From: Sipunculus nudus
Lineage: Eukaryota; Annelida; Sipuncula; Golfingiida; Sipunculidae
Length of the DNA: 64,000 bases
NCBI GenBank assembly: GCA_026874595.1
Contig: CM049313.1
Coordinates: forward strand, 60,932,659-60,996,658
Reading direction: 5' to 3'
A model generated the notes under the pieces. That model was not told where the DNA came from. It worked only from the letters and a program-made list of their open reading frames with translations, and searched no databases. Positions 13,796-61,100 of this stretch are shown one piece after another. How positions within the stretch are numbered: position 1 is the first letter of the stretch; the number at the start of each line of letters is the position of its first letter. Made by a program: the position numbers and the translations under genes.

Positions 13796-16700
13796 AAAAA
13801 AAAAATATCTTAAATATGGATATACATTTATCATCCAAGAATATAACTTTAGGCATGCAGGAGTTACCAGAAGGGTGTTCCTGAAACAAGTTCATTTCAG
13901 GTTTTATATATGCAAGAAAGGGAGACAAATGTAAATGAAGAAGGAATAGGGAAGTTTCTGTAATTTATTTTCTGAACAAGGATGAAGTTCTTTTTCAACC
14001 TCTGACATCAATTCATGCCTGAACTGACAACATGAATTGTACAAGAAAACAATTATGTTAAAAAACATAAGACAGAAGTTCTAGTGTAAACTTTAATATC
14101 ACAGGCAATGCAACCAACATTAGAGAGACATCTCCCATCACATGGCTATAGCTGACATCTCTCTATAATCAGACAGATAATACTGGTGTATCCCTAACTG
14201 ATGAGTATCTATGCCCTAGGGGACAACTACAAAATGCCATACATAAATCGACCAATATACAATGCTGATCATTGCAATAACAGTAGCTGGTCAGTGTCCT
14301 GGTTCCACAGGAGAGTGCCAGGGGCCCGTGTCATTAACGTTTATTATCAACAATAATTCTGATCATTAATTTAATTAAATATATTCTTAGTTCATCTGAC
14401 TTTTACTACTAACTAAACATAGAGATTGAACTTCCAGACATACTCAACTCTTGTTCCACCAGTAACTTTTCTTGGGTTAACCATGATATAACAAACAGCA
14501 AGGAAATAATTGCATTATAACATAAGACACTATCATTATGAGATCACAATGATAATACACAACTGTACGTTTTCACTCTTTAAAAAATTATATTTTTTTT
14601 AATTAACAGAAAGATAACATGACCATTACTGCACTAATCATGCCATAAAACTATGATATTATGACATCAGAAAGGCTAAGCAACCTGGAAAATATTCATT
14701 TCTAAGATGAGATACCAGACATACAAAGGGTGAAAATGAACCAAAAATCTGTTATGTATTAAATCTTGTTTTATTAAAAACTTGTGCTTAATCAAGTAAA
14801 AACAACCTGTGATATTTCTGGAAGCCAAAGGGATTCAGATTTTATGAAGACCGTAAACTGAAACCCTCTGCAAGCAGGACAAGCTGAAATATGCTCCCAT
14901 TTTAAAGGAATCTGTTTATCATGATGCTAATGACGTATATTTACTTCTAATTTTTCAGAATTCAACCAAAAATTCTGAGGTTTCACAACAGGTGATTTTT
15001 CCCTCCAAATATAAAAGCATATATGAAAGTATACTTTAATTCCTCAATATGAGAAATCACCTTATCATAATGATCATTTTGAACATATTGTCAGTATCAG
15101 TTCACTATTTCAGTTAATCTAAAAATCATCTCACAAAACACTCATTTTATCTCAATTTCCCTCATCTATTACTTTAATTAACATTTATCTATTTTTAACT
15201 CATAAAGTTACTGTATTTTTTCCCTAACAGATTAAAATTATAAGAATTTTCAATGTAACATTATACAGGAGGAGATGTTAGTTGACAGTTTGACCTTATT
15301 ATTTCAGTAGCAGTTTATCCAGTATGTGGCAATAGCATGCCTTTAGTCAGGCAGAATAAATCCAAGTAATGCTTACCACAGCTTAAAATTGCATTTTCCA
15401 TTATTTTTCACCAATTCCCAAATGAACTTTTCAGATAAACCCCAGTGTACTTAACACCTTTCCTCTTAGTGGGCAGTCATGTTCTAGGCCTTCATACTCA
15501 GTGTATCAAAGTCATCAAAACCAAGAATTGATATAGAATTTATAAATCCCTAGCACACATACTGAATGGAACAGAACCTGTTATTTATACCACCATTTCA
15601 CTTGAACCCTATTTTACCCTGATGCTGGCACTGGCTGGGGACTGTGATATGTCAGAAATGTTGTTACAGTTAAAACAATCGGTGATATTTTAGTCTCACT
15701 CAGGCCTTATATCACTAACAGGCAGTATTTGTACTGAAATGTATACATAGTATTATAATGATGGACCTGTATATATGAGGCTTTTAATCTGATTATTGAC
15801 CGAGCCATGAGACAGATGAACCATGGTTCAAATCAGCTGTGATACCTGGAGTTTTGATTTGATACAGAAGCCACTTGAAATTCAACATGATATCAAAGCT
15901 CCAAATTCAACCCACGGTTACTTTATTAACTAAAGTGTCCATAATGGCTGTTTAACAGAAATGTAAGCAATGTTCTCATATTTTAAGAATGTTTAAAATT
16001 GAAACATGGTTTCCATGTTGTGTCACCATTGCAGAACTGTGATTGCAGAATCACAATGTATCAACATTTTGATATCTGTTACACCCATAGACCATTCAAA
16101 AGGTGACTAAATCCTAAGTCAAACCAGTTTTCTGCTGAAGATATCCTTCAGTAAGTACAATTTTTTGCTGCAGAAACCCATTTCTTCCAAGGGTAAGTAA
16201 ATGAACCAAGTCTGGAAAATAATGATAGGGAGCGAGGAAAGGCTGCAAAGACTATTCTGGTCCATGAACTTGAGCAAAATCGGCCAATGTTATATGATCA
16301 GACTCTTCAAAGCAAGTGTGCCAAGATATCTTTTAGGTCTCACACACTCATAATACAAACAAGATCAGTGTATCTGGATGCATATGTACAGAGAAGTCAT
16401 ATGGGAAATTTTGTTGTATAATCAGCAGACAGGTCCAATATACATCATGACTGCCTCTCGGAACATGTATTACTTCTCTTATAGAGTGTACTGGCATACA
16501 GACAAGGACGCTAGTTATTATACTAATAAACGTCCCTCATGCATAGTCAATGAGCTCACAGCACTAGTAACTGTATTAATACAGCACATTCCCATGACAC
16601 CTGGCAACGCCATATCAGTTCATATCTGCAGGTCCCTCATGTACTTCCTCAGTGCCTGGAACACTTACATTAATATTCAGTCTTGCCTGAATCATACATA

Positions 16701-17030: not shown

Positions 17031-17231
17031 CTATGTTCTCTCTAGATCCTCTATACATCGTTTCATGTATGCCTTTGTGTCCCATAAGTCCATGACTGCT
17101 GCATGAACCATGTCCGTTAGAATCTGAGGCCACATTTTATGAAGTAACAATCGTTTCTGATCCACCTGTGTTGCCTCTTTCATGGTGTTTTGCACAAACT
17201 TCCGGCAGAATTCTTGACGATTCTGAATATC
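17031..17231 (-). CDS. LRRC49: LRRC49-like exon 10 of those visible (terminal, stop)
   Basis: Acceptor CTCTCTTTGCAG precedes phase-0 DIQNRQEFCRKFVQNTMKEA. The exon ends IEDLERT and a TAG stop (17031-17033). The helix MWPQILTDMVHAAVMDLWD corresponds to the C-terminal helix of vertebrate LRRC49. A frame extending upstream into the intron should be ignored. Confidence 0.92.
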   Translation of the reverse strand, partial: DIQNRQEFCRKFVQNTMKEATQVDQKRLLLHKMWPQILTDMVHAAVMDLWDTKAYMKRCIEDLERT

Positions 17232-19829
17232 CTGCAAAGAGAGGGGAAATTGAAGACATTTGGTCAAATGCCCCCCCCCCCCCCCCCAGGCCCCTCTTAA
17301 GGCTAAGTTTACATTACTTGGTCATACAACAGAAAGCCATGCCCTACATTAAATACTAGGTTCTCAGCACCATACAAGGTATGTAAAATAGTCACTGGTG
17401 AGAAAATGATTAAATAGCATTCAAAAGGCCAATCAAGTTTAAATCATCAGAAGGGAATATTGCAGTATTTACCTGTGTTTTATTGGTGCTATGTGTGTCT
17501 GGAGGCTTGTACATCAGGTATTGTGATAGTATTTACCTGTATTTTATTGTTACTTTGTGTGTCTGGAGGCTTGTTCATCAGGTATTGTGACAGTATTTAC
17601 CTGTGTTTTATTGCTACTTTGTGTGTCTAAAGGCTTGTACATCAGGTATTTGAGCAGTATTAACCTGTGTTTTTTTGGTGCTTTGTGTGTCTGGAGGCTT
17701 GTACATCAGGTATTGGAGCAGTATTTACCTGTGTTTTATTGCTACTTTGAGTGTCTGGAGGGTTGTACACCAGGTATTGTTACAGTATTAACCTGTGTTT
17801 TATCGGAACTTTGTGTTTCTGGAAGGTTGTTAAACAGGTTTTGTGACAGTGCTTACCTGTGTTTTATTGCAATTTTGTGTGTCTGGAGGGTTGTACACCA
17901 GTCCGGCTCGACCTACGGACTCGATGTTTGCCCTCTCAGTCATTTTGGCTTCCTGAGTTTTAGATTTTGATTTTTCCTCCAATGACAACAGCTGTTTTTT
18001 CCTGTAAAATTGAAAATAAATCAGAAATGAAATTGAAAAATGCATAAATCATTACCTGTTCAAAGTTCATAACAGTGCATGGCATAGCCAAGATAAATGA
18101 TTATACTCAATCAACTATGATCTGTCTTGAAATATATATTATCACATGACACCAAGTAAACCAATCAATTTTTCCCCGCTATGAATCATTTACATAAAAT
18201 CCAGTCAGCCAATTACAGGACATATCTTACATGATTTTATTAATGAAGTTAAACCACCAATCAAATCTTAACCAAAAGGGAAACTGCTTCTATCATAGAA
18301 ACAATATCAAGATTTATAGGACAAGGCTGTGGACGACTTGAGGATTCCCCTCCATAGTTGAAGGCTCATAATGAAAGCTTACAGCCTCATGACTTTCTGC
18401 CATGAAGGATATTATTGCTTTTACTTGTTGTATACCAGGATATTAAACATTGTACACATAATAAAAAATGGTGCAAAAAGCCACACAGAAATCAAATTCA
18501 AGACTCAAGGAAAGATACACACTTTTTGATGAGGTATTTCCTTTAAAATATATATGGTAGAAATCCGAAGAAATCTTTTAATGCTTCCTTTTATAAACAA
18601 AGTCAATGTGTGCTAGAATACTGGTGGCTAAATTAAGGAGAAAAAAGGTGGGGGTAAGAAATATTTTTTCATGTTTCCTTATATATTTTTGAGTCAGTTG
18701 TGTGCCAGAATATGTAAATTTTCTAAGTTAATATAAGAGAGCTAAAGAACTGACTTCCATGTTGATGGTGTGAACCAGGATACGTCAAATACAAGTTTGC
18801 TAGGGGTTTAGGGGTCACTAAATTGTATCCTTTTCCTTAAACTAGCTTTTGCCTTTGGCAATTGAATAAAACAGCAAAATACCTAAACAAATGCAAGCTC
18901 TCTGTTACAATCTATTTCTGTAAAAATACAGAAATATTTTGCCCTTATATCTTGTTCTGTGATTAGGTCACAATATGTACATGGAACTTCATTTGTTTAG
19001 AGACATTGTACAATTCTGACTGAACAACAATGGCATTAAGTATAATCACTATATTCTAAAATTCAAACAAGAAATATGTGAAGAAATCTGTAATTAAAAC
19101 CTCTGAAAAAGACCACACGTAAATAACTTTTTATTTAATTTTTTGATATCAAAGATTTTTTTTTACCTATTTTCTCCCAGAAGGGAGACCAGCCGTGACT
19201 TTGGTAGCTCTGTGGTTGTCATGTGAGATAATGCACCAAAAAACTTCTCAGCATTTACGACGTCTGCTGCACACACCTGAAATTAAACAAATGTTGGTTA
19301 ATATAAGCACTGATACTTAATAGTGACAAGGATGGTGTCAGCCTGAAACTTCAGGGAGACCAGACCCCTACACCAGATGTCTACATTAGTTATTATATCA
19401 AATATTAGACATCTGTTTCCAACATAATTGACATTACCCAATAACTTTGCCATACTTATTGTCCTACCAATCTTTCAGTGGCTGCTAATATCATGATTTT
19501 GTAGCCATCACAATTAAAGCAAGAACAGCATTCATGCAATGGATACCTTTGACATAAACCTGCATTATTTTTACAATGAAAGTTGACATAATGAACATAC
19601 CGGTGTCATTCAACTTTTCTTTTATATATTTATGGTGGTGCATGGGAACCCAACAGTTATTACCAGAGAAAGGGTGGGTGCTAGGAGTGTGTATTATAGT
19701 AAGGACTATAGAGGACTTTTTGGTGGCAACTTCACATGTTAAAGGCAGGCACAGAATGTAGAATATGTAACAGCCACCTACTGGCTGACTATACACAGTT
19801 CAGTGAAAAGCATCAAAAGGAATAAACCT

Positions 19830-38300: not shown

Positions 38301-41300
38301 ATTACTTCTCAGGCACTGGCATGGAAATGACAAGTAATTATTGAAATATGAGATAATAAACGATGTAAAGGTGAATTGTCAAAAAGTTTGAAAGATCTTT
38401 GTAATATATGACATTTTTATTTCTTTTACCTGTAATATCAACATGAAAGGAGATTATATAAGGCTAAGAAAAAAAAGGTTTGGTTCTCAGGCAATATTTT
38501 CAGAAATCAATGCAAGCAGGCAATTTTTTTAAACCTTTTTTTTGTGTTTCTATAAAATGTCATATGATCAGGGAAAAGCATAATAATAAAAATTTTTTTG
38601 CCAAACATGTAAATGCACTACAAAACAAAGGTTATTTTATAAAAAAAATGTATTAATTATCTTCTTGAAAGAAAAGAGTAGCTGGAGCTCATATTGGTAA
38701 GTTTTTATTGAAAATCAAAATAAACTAGATGTGTCGGAACAACACGAATGCCCCCGCCTGGGGCAAACTAGAAACATTTGTTAAATTTTGAAAAAATGTT
38801 AAAGTTCAGGAGTCATATGGTCAAACGTAGGTCAACAAGGGCAAAATGCAAACTCGATCTGTTACGGGTCATTATCAAGCAACACACCAAAAATCATGCC
38901 AGTATCTGCAGGCACTGTGAAAAAAAGTCCATACATGTGCATTTTCCAGAAAAATTTCTGTCTTTCATGAAATTTTCTATGTTTAGGAGCCGTAAAACAA
39001 TCAAAAGTAGGTCAACCGGAAAGAAACTCGAACTCGATCTGTAACTGTCATTATCTGTCCACACACCAAAAATCAGGCCAATATCTGCAGGCACTGCGAA
39101 AAAAAGTCCATACGTATGTATTTGTCATGAAAATTTCTTATTTTTTATGAAATTTTCTAAGTTAAGGAGCCGTAAAACGGTCAAAAGTAGGTCAACTGGA
39201 ATGAAACGCGAACTCGATCTGTAACTGTCATTATCTGCCCACACATAAAAAATCAGGCCCGTATCTGCAGGCACTGCCAAAAAAAGTCTGTACATGTGTA
39301 TTTGTCATGAAAATTTCTGTCTTTCATGAAATTTTCTAAGTTAAGGTGCCGTAAAACGTACAAAAGTAGGTCAATTGGGACAAAATGCGAACTCCATCTG
39401 TAACTGGTCATCATCTGCTTACACACCAAAATTCAGGCCAATATCTGTAGGCACTGCGAAAAAAGTCTGTACATGTGTATTTGTCATGAAAATTTCTATT
39501 TTTCATGAAATTTTCTAAGTTAAGGAGCCGTAAAACGGTCAAAAGTAGGTCAACTGGGACAAAATGCGAACTCTATCAGTAACTGGTCATTATCTGCCTA
39601 CACACCAAAAATCAGGCCAATATCTGCAGGCATTGCGAAAAAAGTCTGTACATGTGTATTTGTCATGAAAATTTCTATTTTTCATGAAATTTTCTAAGTT
39701 AAGAAGCCGTAAAACGGTCAAAAGTAGGTCAACCAGGACAAAACACGAACTCAATCTGTAACTGGTCATTATCTGCTCATACACCAAAAATCAGGCCAAT
39801 ATCTGCAGGCATTGCGAAAAAAAGTCCGTACAACTGTTTTATTTCGGAAGGACTGAATGACGGACATGGGTAAAACTTTGTGGCCACTTTGTGGCGGGGG
39901 CATAAAAATGTTGATGCGGGTGCTGCCTAAGAATCATACCTGTTATTTTTTAAAGGGAATACAGCCCCGACATAGCAGGAAACACAGTGTTTTACTATCA
40001 GTGTGTCACAGTTAATGTCTGTATTTTATAACCCCAGTGCAGAGGTTTATGACCGGAAAATTTTGTTGGAGTATGGTATCTCAGGTGTGGTACTTTTGTG
40101 GACAAATTATTGTTTAAGTGTTTCCGTGAAACTGCCACACAGCAGCCAAAGTTATGACATGAGGTAAGTCAATCAGACAGTACAAATATGGCTTCATCTG
40201 TTGAAACAGAATTAGACAGACCACCCTTTAATCTACAGTAAGCTCACTGGCTTTCCTCTATGCCTGTATCCTCACTTGTTTTGGATCAGAATTGAATATT
40301 ACTAAACCAGTTGACTTTAGCCTCAAAGCTGTACACTTTATGTCAGCACAGTGGTTTGATTTACAAAAGCCTAAATTGGTTTATTCAATAAATCATGAGG
40401 AAGCTGTCCACATATGGTTGTTAAACTGATTTACTGTACTGCAAAAAGTGATATTTCATGGGAATGATTAGGTCAAATGGAAGCATATTTGGCCTAACAC
40501 AGACTAAAAACAGATTAACTGATTTGCATATACCCACTTGGAACCAATTTACTGTAAACCAGACAAAAGTAATCCAAAGTACAACAGACTTCCTAGCAGA
40601 CTACAGTAAACCAATCTGATTAGAATTAGTGGCCAAGTGCATGCCGACAGGGGAAACAAATTTACAATCCAGATTATTTTCAATGCGGATATGGCCTACC
40701 AGTGAATGAGAACTACTGAAACTAAAGAGTTACATCGGTATATAAAAAGACATGCTGCTTACACTGATTTCTCCCGGTCTGGCGTTGTACCCCTTGACCC
40801 TGTGAGTGAGCTGTGAGAAAGTCCACGGCTTCCAGGTTTGACACCTGCCGGTGGTGGCCATTCTTGTAGTGACTGTTGACTCTTTGCACTTGTTGGACGG
40901 CTGTGACCATCACTGGAATAAATAAATAATTTGGAATCTCATGTGGAAATAAGGCTGCATATGCCTTCAAATATGTCATATTTCATTGGTAGAACTTGCA
41001 TACTTTATCATGTGTGAAATTACATTACGTTTGCAATAAACAAATATCAACTGAAATTAGAAAATTAATTTAGTATTTATAAATTAAAATGTAGATTTAT
41101 TCATGAAGTATGGATCATGTGACCATACCTTGATCTTGATGAGGTTCTGTCATCTCCTCCCTCCAATGACTGCTCCTCCCCTGCCCCAGACTCCGCCCCC
41201 AACAGCTCACCATTGGGGTAGGTACCAACATGATTTGCATAAATCTCTGGCATGACATTCTTGACCAGTTTATTGGTTCGGGACATCATTGACCCCTGCA

Positions 41301-55100: not shown

Positions 55101-58100
55101 TAATTGTTTACAAAAATAGTGAAGGAGATTGAAAGAATTAATGGGTATTTATATGTTTGTTTGTTAATGGAGGAAATGAAAAACAACAAAAATTCTAATT
55201 TTTGTTACAGATGTAGCAGTTTGTTTGTGTGCAATTTTCTTTGTATGTATTTATAAAATGTTGTTTGGTGTAATTAATTAATCCTTGGAGGCTGTGGGTG
55301 TAGATTTTATCAGCAATGTTATGGTCAGTTTCATTTATAACTTTTGGTATTTTGCTCCTCAGACTATTGTCTGCTATTTTGGTTCTTGTTTTATTTGTAG
55401 CTAGGGTGTCTTTGTGTCTTGTGTTGTGTCTGTGCGTCATGTTTCTTGTCGATATATTAAACGTTAGGAAGAATTTTGGAAGTGCTGCATGACAATAATT
55501 ATAATAAAATTTTATTATGTTTAATTTGAAAATATCCTTGATTTTTAGGGTTTTTGATGATTTAAAGATTGGTTCTGTGTGTGCATTGTAGTTGTTATTT
55601 GTAATTATTCTTAAGGCTTTTTTTTGTAATTTTTCTAATCTATTTGTGTCAGAACCCCATATTAGGATTCCGTAATTTAATTGGGACAGAATAAGTGTAT
55701 CATATATGGTTTTAAGTATGTGTATTGGTAGGTATTGTTTTAATTTATTTAGTACTCCTATGTATTTTGAAATTTTTGATGCAATTTTGTTTGTGTGTGT
55801 TTGCCATTTCATGTGTTCATTTATTGTTATACCCAAGAAATTGAAATCTGATACCCTTTCTATTGGTGTTTTATCAATTTTGAGATCAGGGCTTCCATCT
55901 TTTAGAGTTTTATGTTTAGTATGAAAGATCATAAATTTTGTTTTTTGTACATTTAATGAGAGTTTATTAGCATTTAACCAGTTATGTACTTTATTTAATT
56001 CTTTGTTGATGATGTGTTGGTCTTTTAGTTTGTTGTAACTTGCCAAGGGGTTAAATAATGTTGTATCGTCAGCGTATAGTATGAAATTAAAATAGTTGCT
56101 GCATTGATGTATGTCATTCATATATATTAAGTACAATAGAGGAACCAGGATTGATCCCTGGGGTACCCCGGTGTTTATTGGAAGTTTATTTGATTTGTGT
56201 CCTTTGTAATCAACGTATTGCGTTCTGTTAGTTAGATAGTTAGTAAGCCATAGTAGAGTTTTTTCTTTAATACCGTAAAATTTTAGTTTATGTGTTAATA
56301 TGTCATGATTTAAGGTGTCGAATGCTTTTGATAAGTCTAAATATATTGCGAGTGGCGTATTTCCATTGTCTATTTCTTTATATAGTCTGTCTGCTAATTC
56401 TAATATTGCGTGTTTGGTCGAGTGTTTTTTTCTGAATCCATATTGGCTGGTGTATATTAAGTCATTTGTTTGAAGAAAGTCGTATAATTGATTGTATATT
56501 ATTTTTTCAAATAATTTAGAAATGGTTGGTAATAGTGAAATTGGCCTGTAATTTTCAGGTTCATGAATACATTCTTTTTTGTGAATAGGGGTTACTTTAT
56601 CAGGAAATATACCTGTAGTGAGTGACTGATTTATGATTATACTAAGAGGTCTGATAATGGCAGGACTAATTTTCTTAAGTAGATTACTGGAAAGATCGTC
56701 ATATCCTGTATTATTTTTTGGCTTGAGATTGTCAATTATGTTTTGTACTTCCGAGTCATTTACATGTTTAAAAGTTAAAAGGTTTTTAATGTTTGTACTT
56801 TGCTTTTTTTGTGTGTTTAGATATTTCTTGTAGTCTATTTTGTGACTGTTTTTTATTTTGTTTGCCATTTTTACTCCTATATTGCCAAAAAAATTATTGA
56901 AATGATTAGCTATTTTTGTGGGATTATTTATTTTATCGCCTTTAATTATTACGTATTCGGGAAGGCTTTTTTTCTCTTTTCTTTGTATTATTTCATTGAT
57001 TGTTTCCCATGTTTTTTTAATATCTGTTTTAGTCTTATTGAATTTATTGTTGTAGTAATGTTGTTTTGCTTCAAGTATTGTTTTTTTTAAGAATTTTATT
57101 GTATTGTCTAAGTTGGTGTTTTTTTGTTGTGAATTCTATGCCATTTGTTTCTGCAGCTCTCATTGATTTATATAATGTATCTCTATATTTGATTGATTTA
57201 ATGAGTCCAAAAGTTATCCAGTTTGTTTTTTTTGTCTTGTATTTGTTAAATTTTATTTTCTTTAAAGGCATGTTTTTATTTATTGCTTGAGTCAGAATAT
57301 TTTCTAGAATATTGTAATTTATATTTGGGTTAGAGGACATGTCTAGACTTATTTTATCAACAATTTTAGCGTTTGTCAAGTCATTATGGAGGGAGTTTAT
57401 GGTTTGTGGGGTGATGTTGCGCCTGAGGTTGTAGTGTTGTTTATTAGTTTTTTTGTTTTGAGCAGCTATATTAATGGATATGTAACATGGTAGGTGATCA
57501 GATATGTTGTTAATAAGAACACCTGACTGGCTGTGGCGTGGTGGGACGTTTGAGAATATGTTGTCGATGAGTGTAGCTGAGGTGTCTGTGATGCGGGTCG
57601 GTATGGTTATGTTTGCGTGAAGTCCATGTGCGTGTACTGATTCCTAAAAGTTACGGTGTGCTGTTTTGGTTTTTATTTTGAGTAGATCTATGTTAAAGTC
57701 ACCAGCTATAATTATGTCAGAGTTGTGTTTATTGATGTGATAGAGATGCATAGTTAGTTCTTCAATAAATTGGTTGATGTCTTCTATATTATTATTATAT
57801 GGTGGTTTATATATATTGACTAGTTTGATAATTTTATTTGTCTCAGGTATCTTTACCTTTATAAATAATCCCTCCCAGTTTTCTGTTTTGATAATTGGTT
57901 GGTATATTTCATATTTAAATTTTTTATGTAGATATATTATTAGTCCTCCATGTTCTGTGCAGTGTTTGCCTTTGTGTATGCAGTTATAATTGTTTAGTTG
58001 TAGTGTACTTATGTCCGAGTCATCTTGTAACCACGTTTCTTGTAAGCATAGAGCACTGATTTCGATATTATTTGATATTAGTTCTTCTAGTAGTAGTGAT

Positions 58101-61100
58101 ATTTTGTCATGTTTTGCATTTATGCTTTGGCAGTTCAGTGATATTAATGTAAATTTATTTGGTTGTTTTAAGGTTTGGTTTAGTGTATCTGTAGTGTAGT
58201 AGAATGAGTTCGGGTTTTGGATTGTGTGTGTGTATTTATCTGTCTTGTTTTAAATTTAAGATTTTTGATAAATTATTGTTGGCTATTCCTCCAAAGTTTT
58301 TTAATATGTCTGCTTCATTTGACATGCTTTGATTAAAATTAATAATAATAATTAGCCCACTAGGGAACTAAAGAGCGACTGTTTGGAGGTAACAGTTGTG
58401 GTCAAAAGTATAGAAGTTAGGGTCTTAGAATTAAGTTTATATAAATATTCTAGATAGTAAAATATAGATAATAACCGTATATGTTACCAGATAGAACGGT
58501 TAGAGAGTAATAGTAACAAGTTCAGTAGTATCATAACAGAAATTAGATTAGAAGTTTGATTTTGTATGCTTTAAAAGTTTAATCCTTGATTGAGCTTTGA
58601 GGTTTACATCCGACAGGTTCGGTTCTGTTTCCTTTACAACGGATGATGAGTCGCCTATATTTTCATAATATTCTTTTGCATAGTACGTTTAATATACAAA
58701 ATTGACGACTCATCTCACGTTGTTTATCTTAAAGATCAAATAATGAAACAAGTATATATATATATCTTTAAAGGCTCGTTAAAGTATCATTTATCAAGAT
58801 TAATCGACCGCCGGAAGTTCGTTCCTTTGTTTTATTTCGGGCGACATCTACCGGCTGATTTATGAACTTCTAGGGTTGCCGATTGACCTTTGACCTTTAA
58901 TTGTTCTTAGAGCCGTGGGGGCTTTCAAGCTGTAGCGACTCACGGCTGTTTGCTGAAATCAATAAAAAATCCTTGAATTGTTCGAGGTGTTCGATGTCTT
59001 CAATTAGAGTTGATGTGGTCTTGTTGTCTTCTTTAACGTAGATGTCACCTTTGTATGTCCAAACTGACTTTATTTTTTTGTTCTTTTTCATTTTTCTGCA
59101 TTCATAAAGCAGTTCGTCAGTTTTTTTTGTCAGATCCTCTGATATGTATATTTTTTCATTTTTGTTTTTTCGTAGTAATCTTTTTTCATGATATATAATG
59201 TCCTTTGTTTTTTCTTTTTTGAATATGACAAGAATTTTTTTCGGCCTATTTTCTGTGTTCTTTCCAATTCGGATGGCACTGTCCAAGTCGTTTTCGTTCA
59301 GAGGTTTCCTCAGTTTTAGATTTCTGTTTAGTGTTTCAACCACTAGGTTTGCTGTGTTTTCGTTTATCCTTTGCTGGATGCCTTCGATAATAATGTTTTT
59401 GCATTTTTAATGTTGCTCAATTTTTTCTTTGATGGTTTTGATTTCGCATTTCTTTGCAAGTTTGCATGCAATTCCTGCATTTCTGTTCTCAGTTCGTCAA
59501 TTTCAGTTTCGTTTTCTTGTACTGTTTCTTTGAGATTTTTTATTTCTGTCTTCAGTTCTTTCAATTCTGTTCTTAGAGGGTGAACAATATAATTTTCAAA
59601 ATATTTTTGAACGTCTTTATTCAGTAGAGCGGATACCAATTGCTGTGCAATTTTGGACGACGCATCCATTTTGAGTTCTTGTTGTTTATCTCTGTACTTT
59701 ATTTTTTCGCGTGTTTATTTTCACACGACAAAATGGCCTCTTTGTTACTAGGGGCCCGGCCCACACCTAGCGCTGGTATAAAATGTTTCTTACTTACTAT
59801 TTGTTGGTTATTCCACTTCGGAGCGACCTGGTATCCTTAGTATCTTCAGTGGTTAGACTTTTGTTTATCTGGCATTATTTTTTCTTTCGATTTTTCATTT
59901 TGAACCTGTTTTTTTTTGGAGCTCACGCTTTTTGCGTGCTACCCAGTAGCTAGCCTGTTCAATATATGTGCATTTATTTGTGTGTGGTACCAGGTATAAA
60001 ACTTGTACAATGAGAATTTATCTATTTATTGGTGACACTTACATACATTGAGCATCAGACATTAATGGTCAGCTAAGATCAGATTATGAAAGTGCATGTC
60101 ACTGACCAGACTGATACTATCTGTAATACTGATCAAATGTAATTAAACTTAACATACCACAAAATTAATATTCTGTAATCAGTATGCTATACCATCAAAC
60201 AATGGGTTAAAGATATTGTTGATCACATGTGGATTCTCCTGTTATCATCAAAACAGGTTCTGTTATATTCTGTGAAAAACTGGTGTTGCAATAATGTTAA
60301 ACAATGTTGTGAGTTTCTCTAAATCAAACTTAAATATATGAATATTCTGCGCTTGTGTAAATGGTCACACTCCATGGGACTCTTGAATCAAGGGAAAGGA
60401 CAAAACATCTAGGTGCATGGCATTACCTGGTTCACCTGGACTGGTCTGGTATAAAATACACACAGATTCAAGGCTTATATCCACAAAGTAAATGTCTGAT
60501 TAATTCTGGGATTGCTGCATGATCAAGACAAATCTCTTGTATAAAAAAAATATTACGTAAAAACATGATATCCAACCACTGCACCTGTACTGACCATAGT
60601 TATATGCTTTATCTTCACCATATAATCCTTTAAGAGGATCACCTGTTGTGCCTGACTACATTATAAAAACAGCAGACTGAGCCAGGAAGACAGAACAGAG
60701 CAGACACAGACAGATACAACAGGTAGAGCCAGGCACAACAGAGCAAACCGGACTGAGCTATACACAACAGAGTAGGGCTGAAAGGAGTACTCGAGTACTC
60801 GAGTCCGGGTAATACTTACCGAGTACTTGAGTCAAAATTTTGGACTCGAGTACTCGTGTATGTACATGTTAGCATGCATATCTGAATATTTCTGCAAATT
60901 TACGGGCAGTCTGTAGGCCTATTTATTCATTATCATAGCCTGGCATATGGCTCTAAACATATGCTAGTCAAATTAACACAGGTCTTGTTATGAGTATGAC
61001 ATATATCTGTTTCTTCGTTGGGATAAAGTTAAATCGTCACGAAGTCGAATATATGCATATTTTGCATCGGTAAACAGATGTCCGTTTTATCTTACAGCGT

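Follow-up and report, generated by a model that had tools for sequence, protein, structure and literature searches.

The 64,000-nt stretch of DNA analysed here (the window) carries, on its minus strand, two consecutive coding exons of a gene that the preliminary description had assigned to LRRC49, with the first of them as its exon 9, and a tandem array of 64-bp units lies across the splice donor of the first of them. The elements of the locus are listed in gene order (window coordinates; a slash marks a splice junction).

18002, minus strand: end of the acceptor AG of the 145-nt coding exon, ATTTTACAG/G
17857..18001, minus strand: coding exon of 145 nt, the final 45 of which form the exon part of unit 1; open frame KKQLLSLEEKSKSKTQEAKMTERANIESVGRAGLVYNPPDTQNCNKTQ
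17838..17901, minus strand: unit 1 with the authentic donor CAG/GTAAGC, donor G 17856; PWM 8.09 bits, U1 duplex -11.0
17774..17837, minus strand: unit 2, weak donor-like CAG/GTTAAT, donor G 17792; 0.31 bits, U1 duplex -5.6
17710..17773, minus strand: unit 3, donor-like CAG/GTAAAT, donor G 17728; 4.59 bits, U1 duplex -8.3
17646..17709, minus strand: unit 4, weak donor-like CAG/GTTAAT, donor G 17664; U1 duplex -5.6
17582..17645, minus strand: unit 5, donor-like CAG/GTAAAT, donor G 17600; 4.59 bits, U1 duplex -8.3
17518..17581, minus strand: unit 6, donor-like CAG/GTAAAT, donor G 17536; 4.59 bits, U1 duplex -8.3
17454..17517, minus strand: unit 7, cut off near 17463, donor-like CAG/GTAAAT, donor G 17472; 4.59 bits, U1 duplex -8.3
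17232..17856, minus strand: intron, 625 nt when the authentic donor is used; acceptor TTTCCCCTCTCTTTGCAG/, with 17 of 20 pyrimidines before CAG
17031..17231, minus strand: next coding exon, 201 nt (66 codons plus TAG), with its acceptor AG at 17233-17232

TRF, run on the whole window, reported the repeat as one array at 17463-17901 with a period of 64, 6.9 copies, 85% matches and a score of 608. It consists of seven head-to-tail units on the minus strand, each made up of the last 45 nt of the exon and the first 19 nt of the intron, and its tandem repetition is far beyond chance. The splice signal CAG/GT was present in all seven units at spacings of exactly 64 nt, and every one of the seven donor positions given in the preliminary description was correct to the base. 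Three features relate the array to known repeat types: exon and adjoining intron sequence both lie inside the unit, as in mirage minisatellites; the authentic donor G at 17856 sits in the first unit, as in donor VNTRs of the CBS and ABCA7 type; and AG/GT occurs in each unit, as in dual-specific or recursive splice-site arrays. Pairwise identity among the units was 77-91%, that is, they stand 9-23% apart. Units 5 and 6 were 0.91 alike, units 1 and 7 reached 0.86 and 0.88, and unit 2 was at most 0.81 identical to any other. A DNA search of the 1.43-Gb assembly, in which very common words are skipped, matched the array once. The same intron also holds 17 consecutive C residues (G17 in the gene sense) at 17271-17287, 39 nt upstream of its acceptor. 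On the plus strand, one antisense frame stays open for 146 codons through the array (17530-17970), as follows from a repeat unit that contains no stops in this frame.

The exon at 17231-17031 is likely the last of the gene, since it contains an in-frame stop and lies upstream of an AATAAA at 15927. With regard to gene identity, LRR_9 appeared below its cut-off in two of the eight minus-strand pieces scanned against Pfam, and no LRRC49 chain was among the matches of PDB sequence searches with the protein of the gene. A processed copy, sought as a means of revealing which donor junction is used, was not found in the genome; the 114-residue query of the joined last two exons matched only those exons.

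Donor strength was scored with a matrix of human donor frequencies, which may not be those of the host. By this measure, donor 1 (GTAAGC) was matched or exceeded by 6 of the 7310 GTs on both strands of the window, itself included, and donor 2 by 670 of 7310 on the same count. The exon-attached donor of unit 1 was clearly the best, and the six other copies read GTAAAT (four) or GTTAAT (two). Sequence strength would therefore favour the regular donor at 17856. Spare donors 3, 5, 6 and 7 nevertheless rank within the best 1% of window GTs (73 of 7310), and their 4.59 bits are close to the 4.66 bits of AAG/GTATGG at 41128, a probable authentic donor of the same gene, so that low-level leaky use of donors 3 and 5-7 is plausible. 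Selection on the spare donors was sought in the conservation of alignment columns, with no strong sign of it. Among the seven units, 36 of 64 columns were invariant, 28 of them among the 45 exon-like and 8 among the 19 intron-like columns; invariance of all five CAGGT columns had P = 0.049 under random placement, and a longest invariant run of at least 6 columns had P = 0.61. Unit 1 differed from the consensus at four positions of its exon part, all of them amino-acid changing (V/M, N/K, N/S, C/S). As a result, there was no good sign that either the spare donors or the peptide are maintained.

The consequences of donor choice follow directly from the reading frame. The exon frame is open up to donor 1, and splicing there preserves it. 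The unit length is 64 = 3n+1, and any downstream donor shifts the frame, as had been proposed; the predicted stop after eight codons was also confirmed, with VSTVTKPV and then the same stop read from each of donors 2-7. The distances from this stop to the junction are 37, 101, 165, 229, 293 and 357 nt for donors 2 to 7, respectively. The preliminary description had placed the donor 2 stop about 37 nt from the last junction, which agrees with the computed value, and had suggested that this product could escape nonsense-mediated decay. The distance does lie within the 50-nt rule, which is best founded in vertebrates, and donor 2 alone has its stop less than 50 nt from the junction; however, with GTTAAT and 0.31 bits it is one of the two weakest donors of the array. 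The more distal donors 3-7, with stops more than 100 nt away, fall outside the escape distance, as had been expected. By contrast, the idea that a length-variable array might tune the C-terminus did not hold: every distal donor meets the same stop and yields an identical truncated protein, so that the C-terminus is not variable by copy number. Extra copies merely lengthen the region after the stop, and copy number could vary only how much mRNA is lost. A tuning role of the array is thus unproven and its C-terminal form is excluded by the sequence, while variation in array length and use of the distal donors are both unproven.

Arrays of this kind were then sought at other exons of the same genome, in a sample of 99 exon loci of the chaperonin (PF00118) and kinesin (PF00225) families. 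For PF00118, 40 of the 52 rows on host contigs were taken (19 loci, plus 20 regions covering 21 rows), and for PF00225, 60 of the 126 kinesin rows, namely the first 61 with one removed. Because of overlaps between some of them, the 99 loci hold 119,243 distinct bases as against 126,694 summed. Five of the 99 loci, with exon edges set by the ends of HMM matches rather than by RNA and with the positive cases judged by eye, carried arrays that repeat a splice site together with its exon edge; four were clear and one degenerate. One lies on the donor side and four on the acceptor side.

L111, 2395-2780: donor side, chaperonin-family exon end CTCACAG/GTGAGT; 84-bp unit, 4.7 copies
L130, 202-364 (sense): acceptor side, chaperonin exon start; unit of about 57-60 bp, 2.8 copies
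L195, 61-314: acceptor side, kinesin exon start; 60-bp unit, 4.2 copies, found by TRF only
L199, 1-336 (sense): acceptor side, kinesin exon start; 72-bp unit, at least 4.7 copies, the array continuing up to where the fetched piece stops
L203, 1-217 (sense), degenerate copies extending as far as the exon at 301: acceptor side, kinesin exon start; 61-bp unit, 3.6 copies

L203 is the least certain of the five. Its TRF array ends 84 nt from the exon match, it was found by the self-match scan and not by the TRF edge test, and it is linked to the exon edge by a 24-base match with 3 differences and by degenerate copies seen by eye. In L111, the exon-attached donor reads GTGAGT and the spares GTGAGA, GGGAGA, TGGAGA and GTGAGA, two of the four having decayed. 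The strongest donor is therefore the exon-attached one in both donor-side arrays (8.96 versus 7.49 bits in L111, 8.09 versus 4.59 in the window array). Left out of the five were L158, L166 and L190, in which arrays adjoin a likely splice site without covering it (by eye), and L126, L153, L167, L178, L194 and L205, which have short arrays of 12-14 bp; the right edge of L207 is merely the end of the fetched piece. Among the chaperonin loci, L110 (G000:C11:3985009-3986721) holds a gene with a 615-codon open frame and both domain matches in one exon, and this gene adjoins an 18-bp array of 46 copies.

The frequency of such arrays is what the minisatellite load of the genome predicts. In the window, TRF reported 13 minisatellite-like arrays (period 10 or more), which together make up 8.3% of its length, and arrays cover 5.8% of the 119,243 distinct bases at the 99 surveyed loci. 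Outside exon edges, occupancy was 3.7% at 1-10 nt, 4.1% at 11-30, 4.2% at 31-60, 4.4% at 61-100, 4.2% at 101-200 and 3.3% at 201-300 nt; the 9.3% found beyond 300 nt rests almost wholly on 19 loci with long flanks. Inside exon matches it was 1.3%; L111, where the match continues into the array, accounts for about half of this. Seeding of arrays at splice sites was rejected as an explanation, because occupancy is flat with distance from the exon edges; the flat profile over 1-300 nt indicates that arrays cross exon edges about as often as local density predicts. An array touched 7 of the 198 exon edges (3.5%). Set against the overall coverage of 5.5%, about 11 of 198 would be expected in the edge test, with P = 0.014 for 4 or fewer; this gives a hint of depletion at edges, which the comparison with near flanks does not show. 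Arrays over splice sites are accordingly frequent in this genome without being seeded there.

Elsewhere in the window, the 179-bp, 5.7-copy array at 38819-39832 shares about 89% identity with a 180-bp array on a different contig (L124, 2047-3180), which makes it a member of a dispersed minisatellite family. A run of ORFs at 55195-59714 on the minus strand resembles a non-LTR retrotransposon, with reading frames that we take to be coiled-coil-like, endonuclease-like and reverse-transcriptase-like with YADD. A special enrichment of donor-like words in minisatellites was also considered. Triples of CAGGTAAAT at gaps of 30-60 nt gave 1119 matches versus 22 for the reversed word, and CAGGTRAG gave 2943 versus 1249; single-word counts were 26,812 (reversed, 19,144) and 16,422 (reversed, 18,376). 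Among the matches listed, about 10 distinct CAGGTAAAT arrays were counted by eye in the first 72 Mb of contig C1, versus 3 GATAACAGT arrays over the whole of C1. These counts were not taken as evidence of enrichment, since a permuted word behaved similarly (951 versus 16) and, among the first 100 or so places listed, single large arrays contribute many matches each.

The host assembly further includes bacterial contigs (C60-C62, C66, C72-C75, C89, C99 and C123 of G000), which carry several COX1 and GroEL genes with near-equal scores; the gene on C123 is presumably ccoN-like. On C89, COX1 and GroEL each occur twice, with 2.04 Mb between the copies, a spacing that would fit a 2-Mb circular genome traversed more than once. 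The COX1 of C60 shows no more than 58% identity to any of the 80 best loci among the matches listed for the GTDB species set. These contigs possibly represent an undescribed symbiont with several strains.

The window array belongs to a known kind of repeat that includes the mirages and the CBS, ABCA7 and IFI6 repeats. The mirages of the amphioxus Adh3 and globin genes are described as minisatellite-like repeats that duplicate exon-intron boundaries, and possibly as a general feature of cephalochordates; in that account, RT-PCR showed regular splicing to be undisturbed, and length varied between haplotypes (PMC3087553). The likeness to the Adh3, BflGb6 and BflGb9 mirages lies in a unit that straddles the exon-intron boundary and in AG/GT in many units, and it is closest in position for BflGb9, where the 3' boundary of exon 2 is duplicated, a donor-side case like the present one (PMC3087553). 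Reported unit identity is 81-100% in BflGb6, compared with 77-91% here, and unit lengths are 10-72 bp in Adh3 and about 150-160 bp in the globins, compared with 64 bp (PMC3087553). The window array differs from these mirages in lying in another gene and presumably in another animal group, and it is known here from the DNA sequence alone. For the human IFI6 gene (6-16, G1P3), a minisatellite with multiple splice donors was reportedly described by Turri in 1995. As presented in a later source, several donors come from this minisatellite at the end of an exon, and two of its downstream units are used as donors (PMC4526556). The IFI6 variants encode different isoforms, whereas the window repeat shifts the frame and runs into a stop.

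The 31-bp CBS VNTR, c.1444_1467+7(16_21), comprises by its name the last 24 nt of an exon and the first 7 nt of the intron per unit and is likewise out of frame (31 = 3n+1); it is given as polymorphic in humans with 16-21 copies (PMC2630376), whereas the window array has 7 diverged copies in one assembly. In the 25-bp VNTR of ABCA7 intron 18, the GT of the first unit is the exon-18 donor, as in the window array, and the donor of the next unit retains one unit and leads to a frameshift and a premature stop, again a likeness (PMC5954066). That unit starts at GT without an exon part, however, the alleles quoted range from 315 to 9711 bp, and the length effect given there is on exon-19 skipping, not on unit retention (PMC5954066). 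Minisatellites at the exon-intron boundaries of genes in human segmental duplications are described as altering splicing patterns, with 27 intron modifications by such variable internal repeats kept after manual inspection (PMC2812944). Those repeats were defined by repeat-number differences between recent human paralogs and had transcript support, whereas the window array is a single-copy locus seen at the DNA level (PMC2812944). Finally, the UBC and VCX3A arrays have AGGT in every unit, as here, but in them the same site is described as serving as donor and acceptor, whereas the window units are without 3' splice-site signals (PMC10809524).

Taken together, the array is best explained as a largely neutral minisatellite of the mirage type, with splicing normally at 17856 and distal donors at most leaky (probability about 0.82). 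A 64-bp segment across the exon-intron junction was tandemly amplified, with the exon-joined copy probably remaining the working splice donor; slippage or unequal exchange could then have extended the array into the intron, where additional copies would be nearly neutral. Normal splicing would use 17856, and occasional use of donors 3 and 5-7 would give a truncated, mostly useless transcript. Most likely the array is one among many in a minisatellite-dense genome and not a dedicated regulatory device. A counter-point is that all seven copies retain CAGGT. Classical minigene experiments in which 5' splice sites were duplicated reportedly showed that, of several equal sites, the one nearer the acceptor can prevail; the distal copies would then be favoured, which speaks against a neutral reading.

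The alternative that survives best, although we regard it as unlikely, is a functional multi-donor switch, in which regulated or copy-number-dependent use of distal donors lowers the amount of protein. Its output would be early-stop transcripts, with splicing coupled to decay, or a protein without the last 66 residues. The seven CAG/GT sites, four of the spares being fair, agree with such a switch, as do the stops of donors 3-7 at distances that decay requires, and precedents are described in IFI6, with two downstream repeat units used as donors (PMC4526556), and in ABCA7, with one-unit retention leading to a premature stop (PMC5954066). Against it, variety at the C-terminus is ruled out by the stop that all distal donors share, donor 2, whose product could escape decay, is one of the two weakest, selection on the spare donors is not clear, and 5 of the 99 other exon loci sampled carry similar arrays.

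A far less probable reading takes the array as an intermediate of intron gain or recursive splicing, in which each AG/GT would act as both acceptor and donor and 64-nt introns would be removed stepwise. CAG/GT is indeed present in every unit, and the unit length equals a potential intron length, as in the dual-specific arrays of UBC and VCX3A (PMC10809524); intron gain by way of mirages has been suggested (PMC3087553), and a potato intron is reported to have arisen from duplication across an intron-exon boundary (PMC4974935). However, only 6-8 of the 20 positions before the CAG of each unit are pyrimidines, in comparison with 17 of 20 at the real acceptor, and this absence of a 3' splice-site pyrimidine tract argues against both recursive splicing and intron gain. 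An assembly artefact, with the copies arising as read-error stutter or a mis-assembled repeat, is similarly improbable: the locus is single and known from one assembly, but units 9-23% apart at a fixed 64-nt spacing argue against stutter, and similar diverged arrays occur at other exons of the same assembly.

By itself, the window array is one more minisatellite overlapping a splice donor, and the useful and new part is the survey, in which 5 of the 99 exon loci sampled from one genome carry such arrays. If this proportion holds genome-wide, it would offer many natural tests of how the spliceosome chooses among sites that are nearly identical, and exon ends in this genome may be mis-placed by gene-model pipelines. 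A broader proposal, which we regard as rather unlikely, is that minisatellites straddling splice sites are pervasive in this animal (about 1 exon in 20 sampled, on donor and acceptor sides) and that, at loci like the present one, their leaky spare sites lower functional mRNA in proportion to array content. If true, thousands of arrays would together form a large reservoir of heritable variation in splicing and a natural library of experiments in which multiple splice sites compete.
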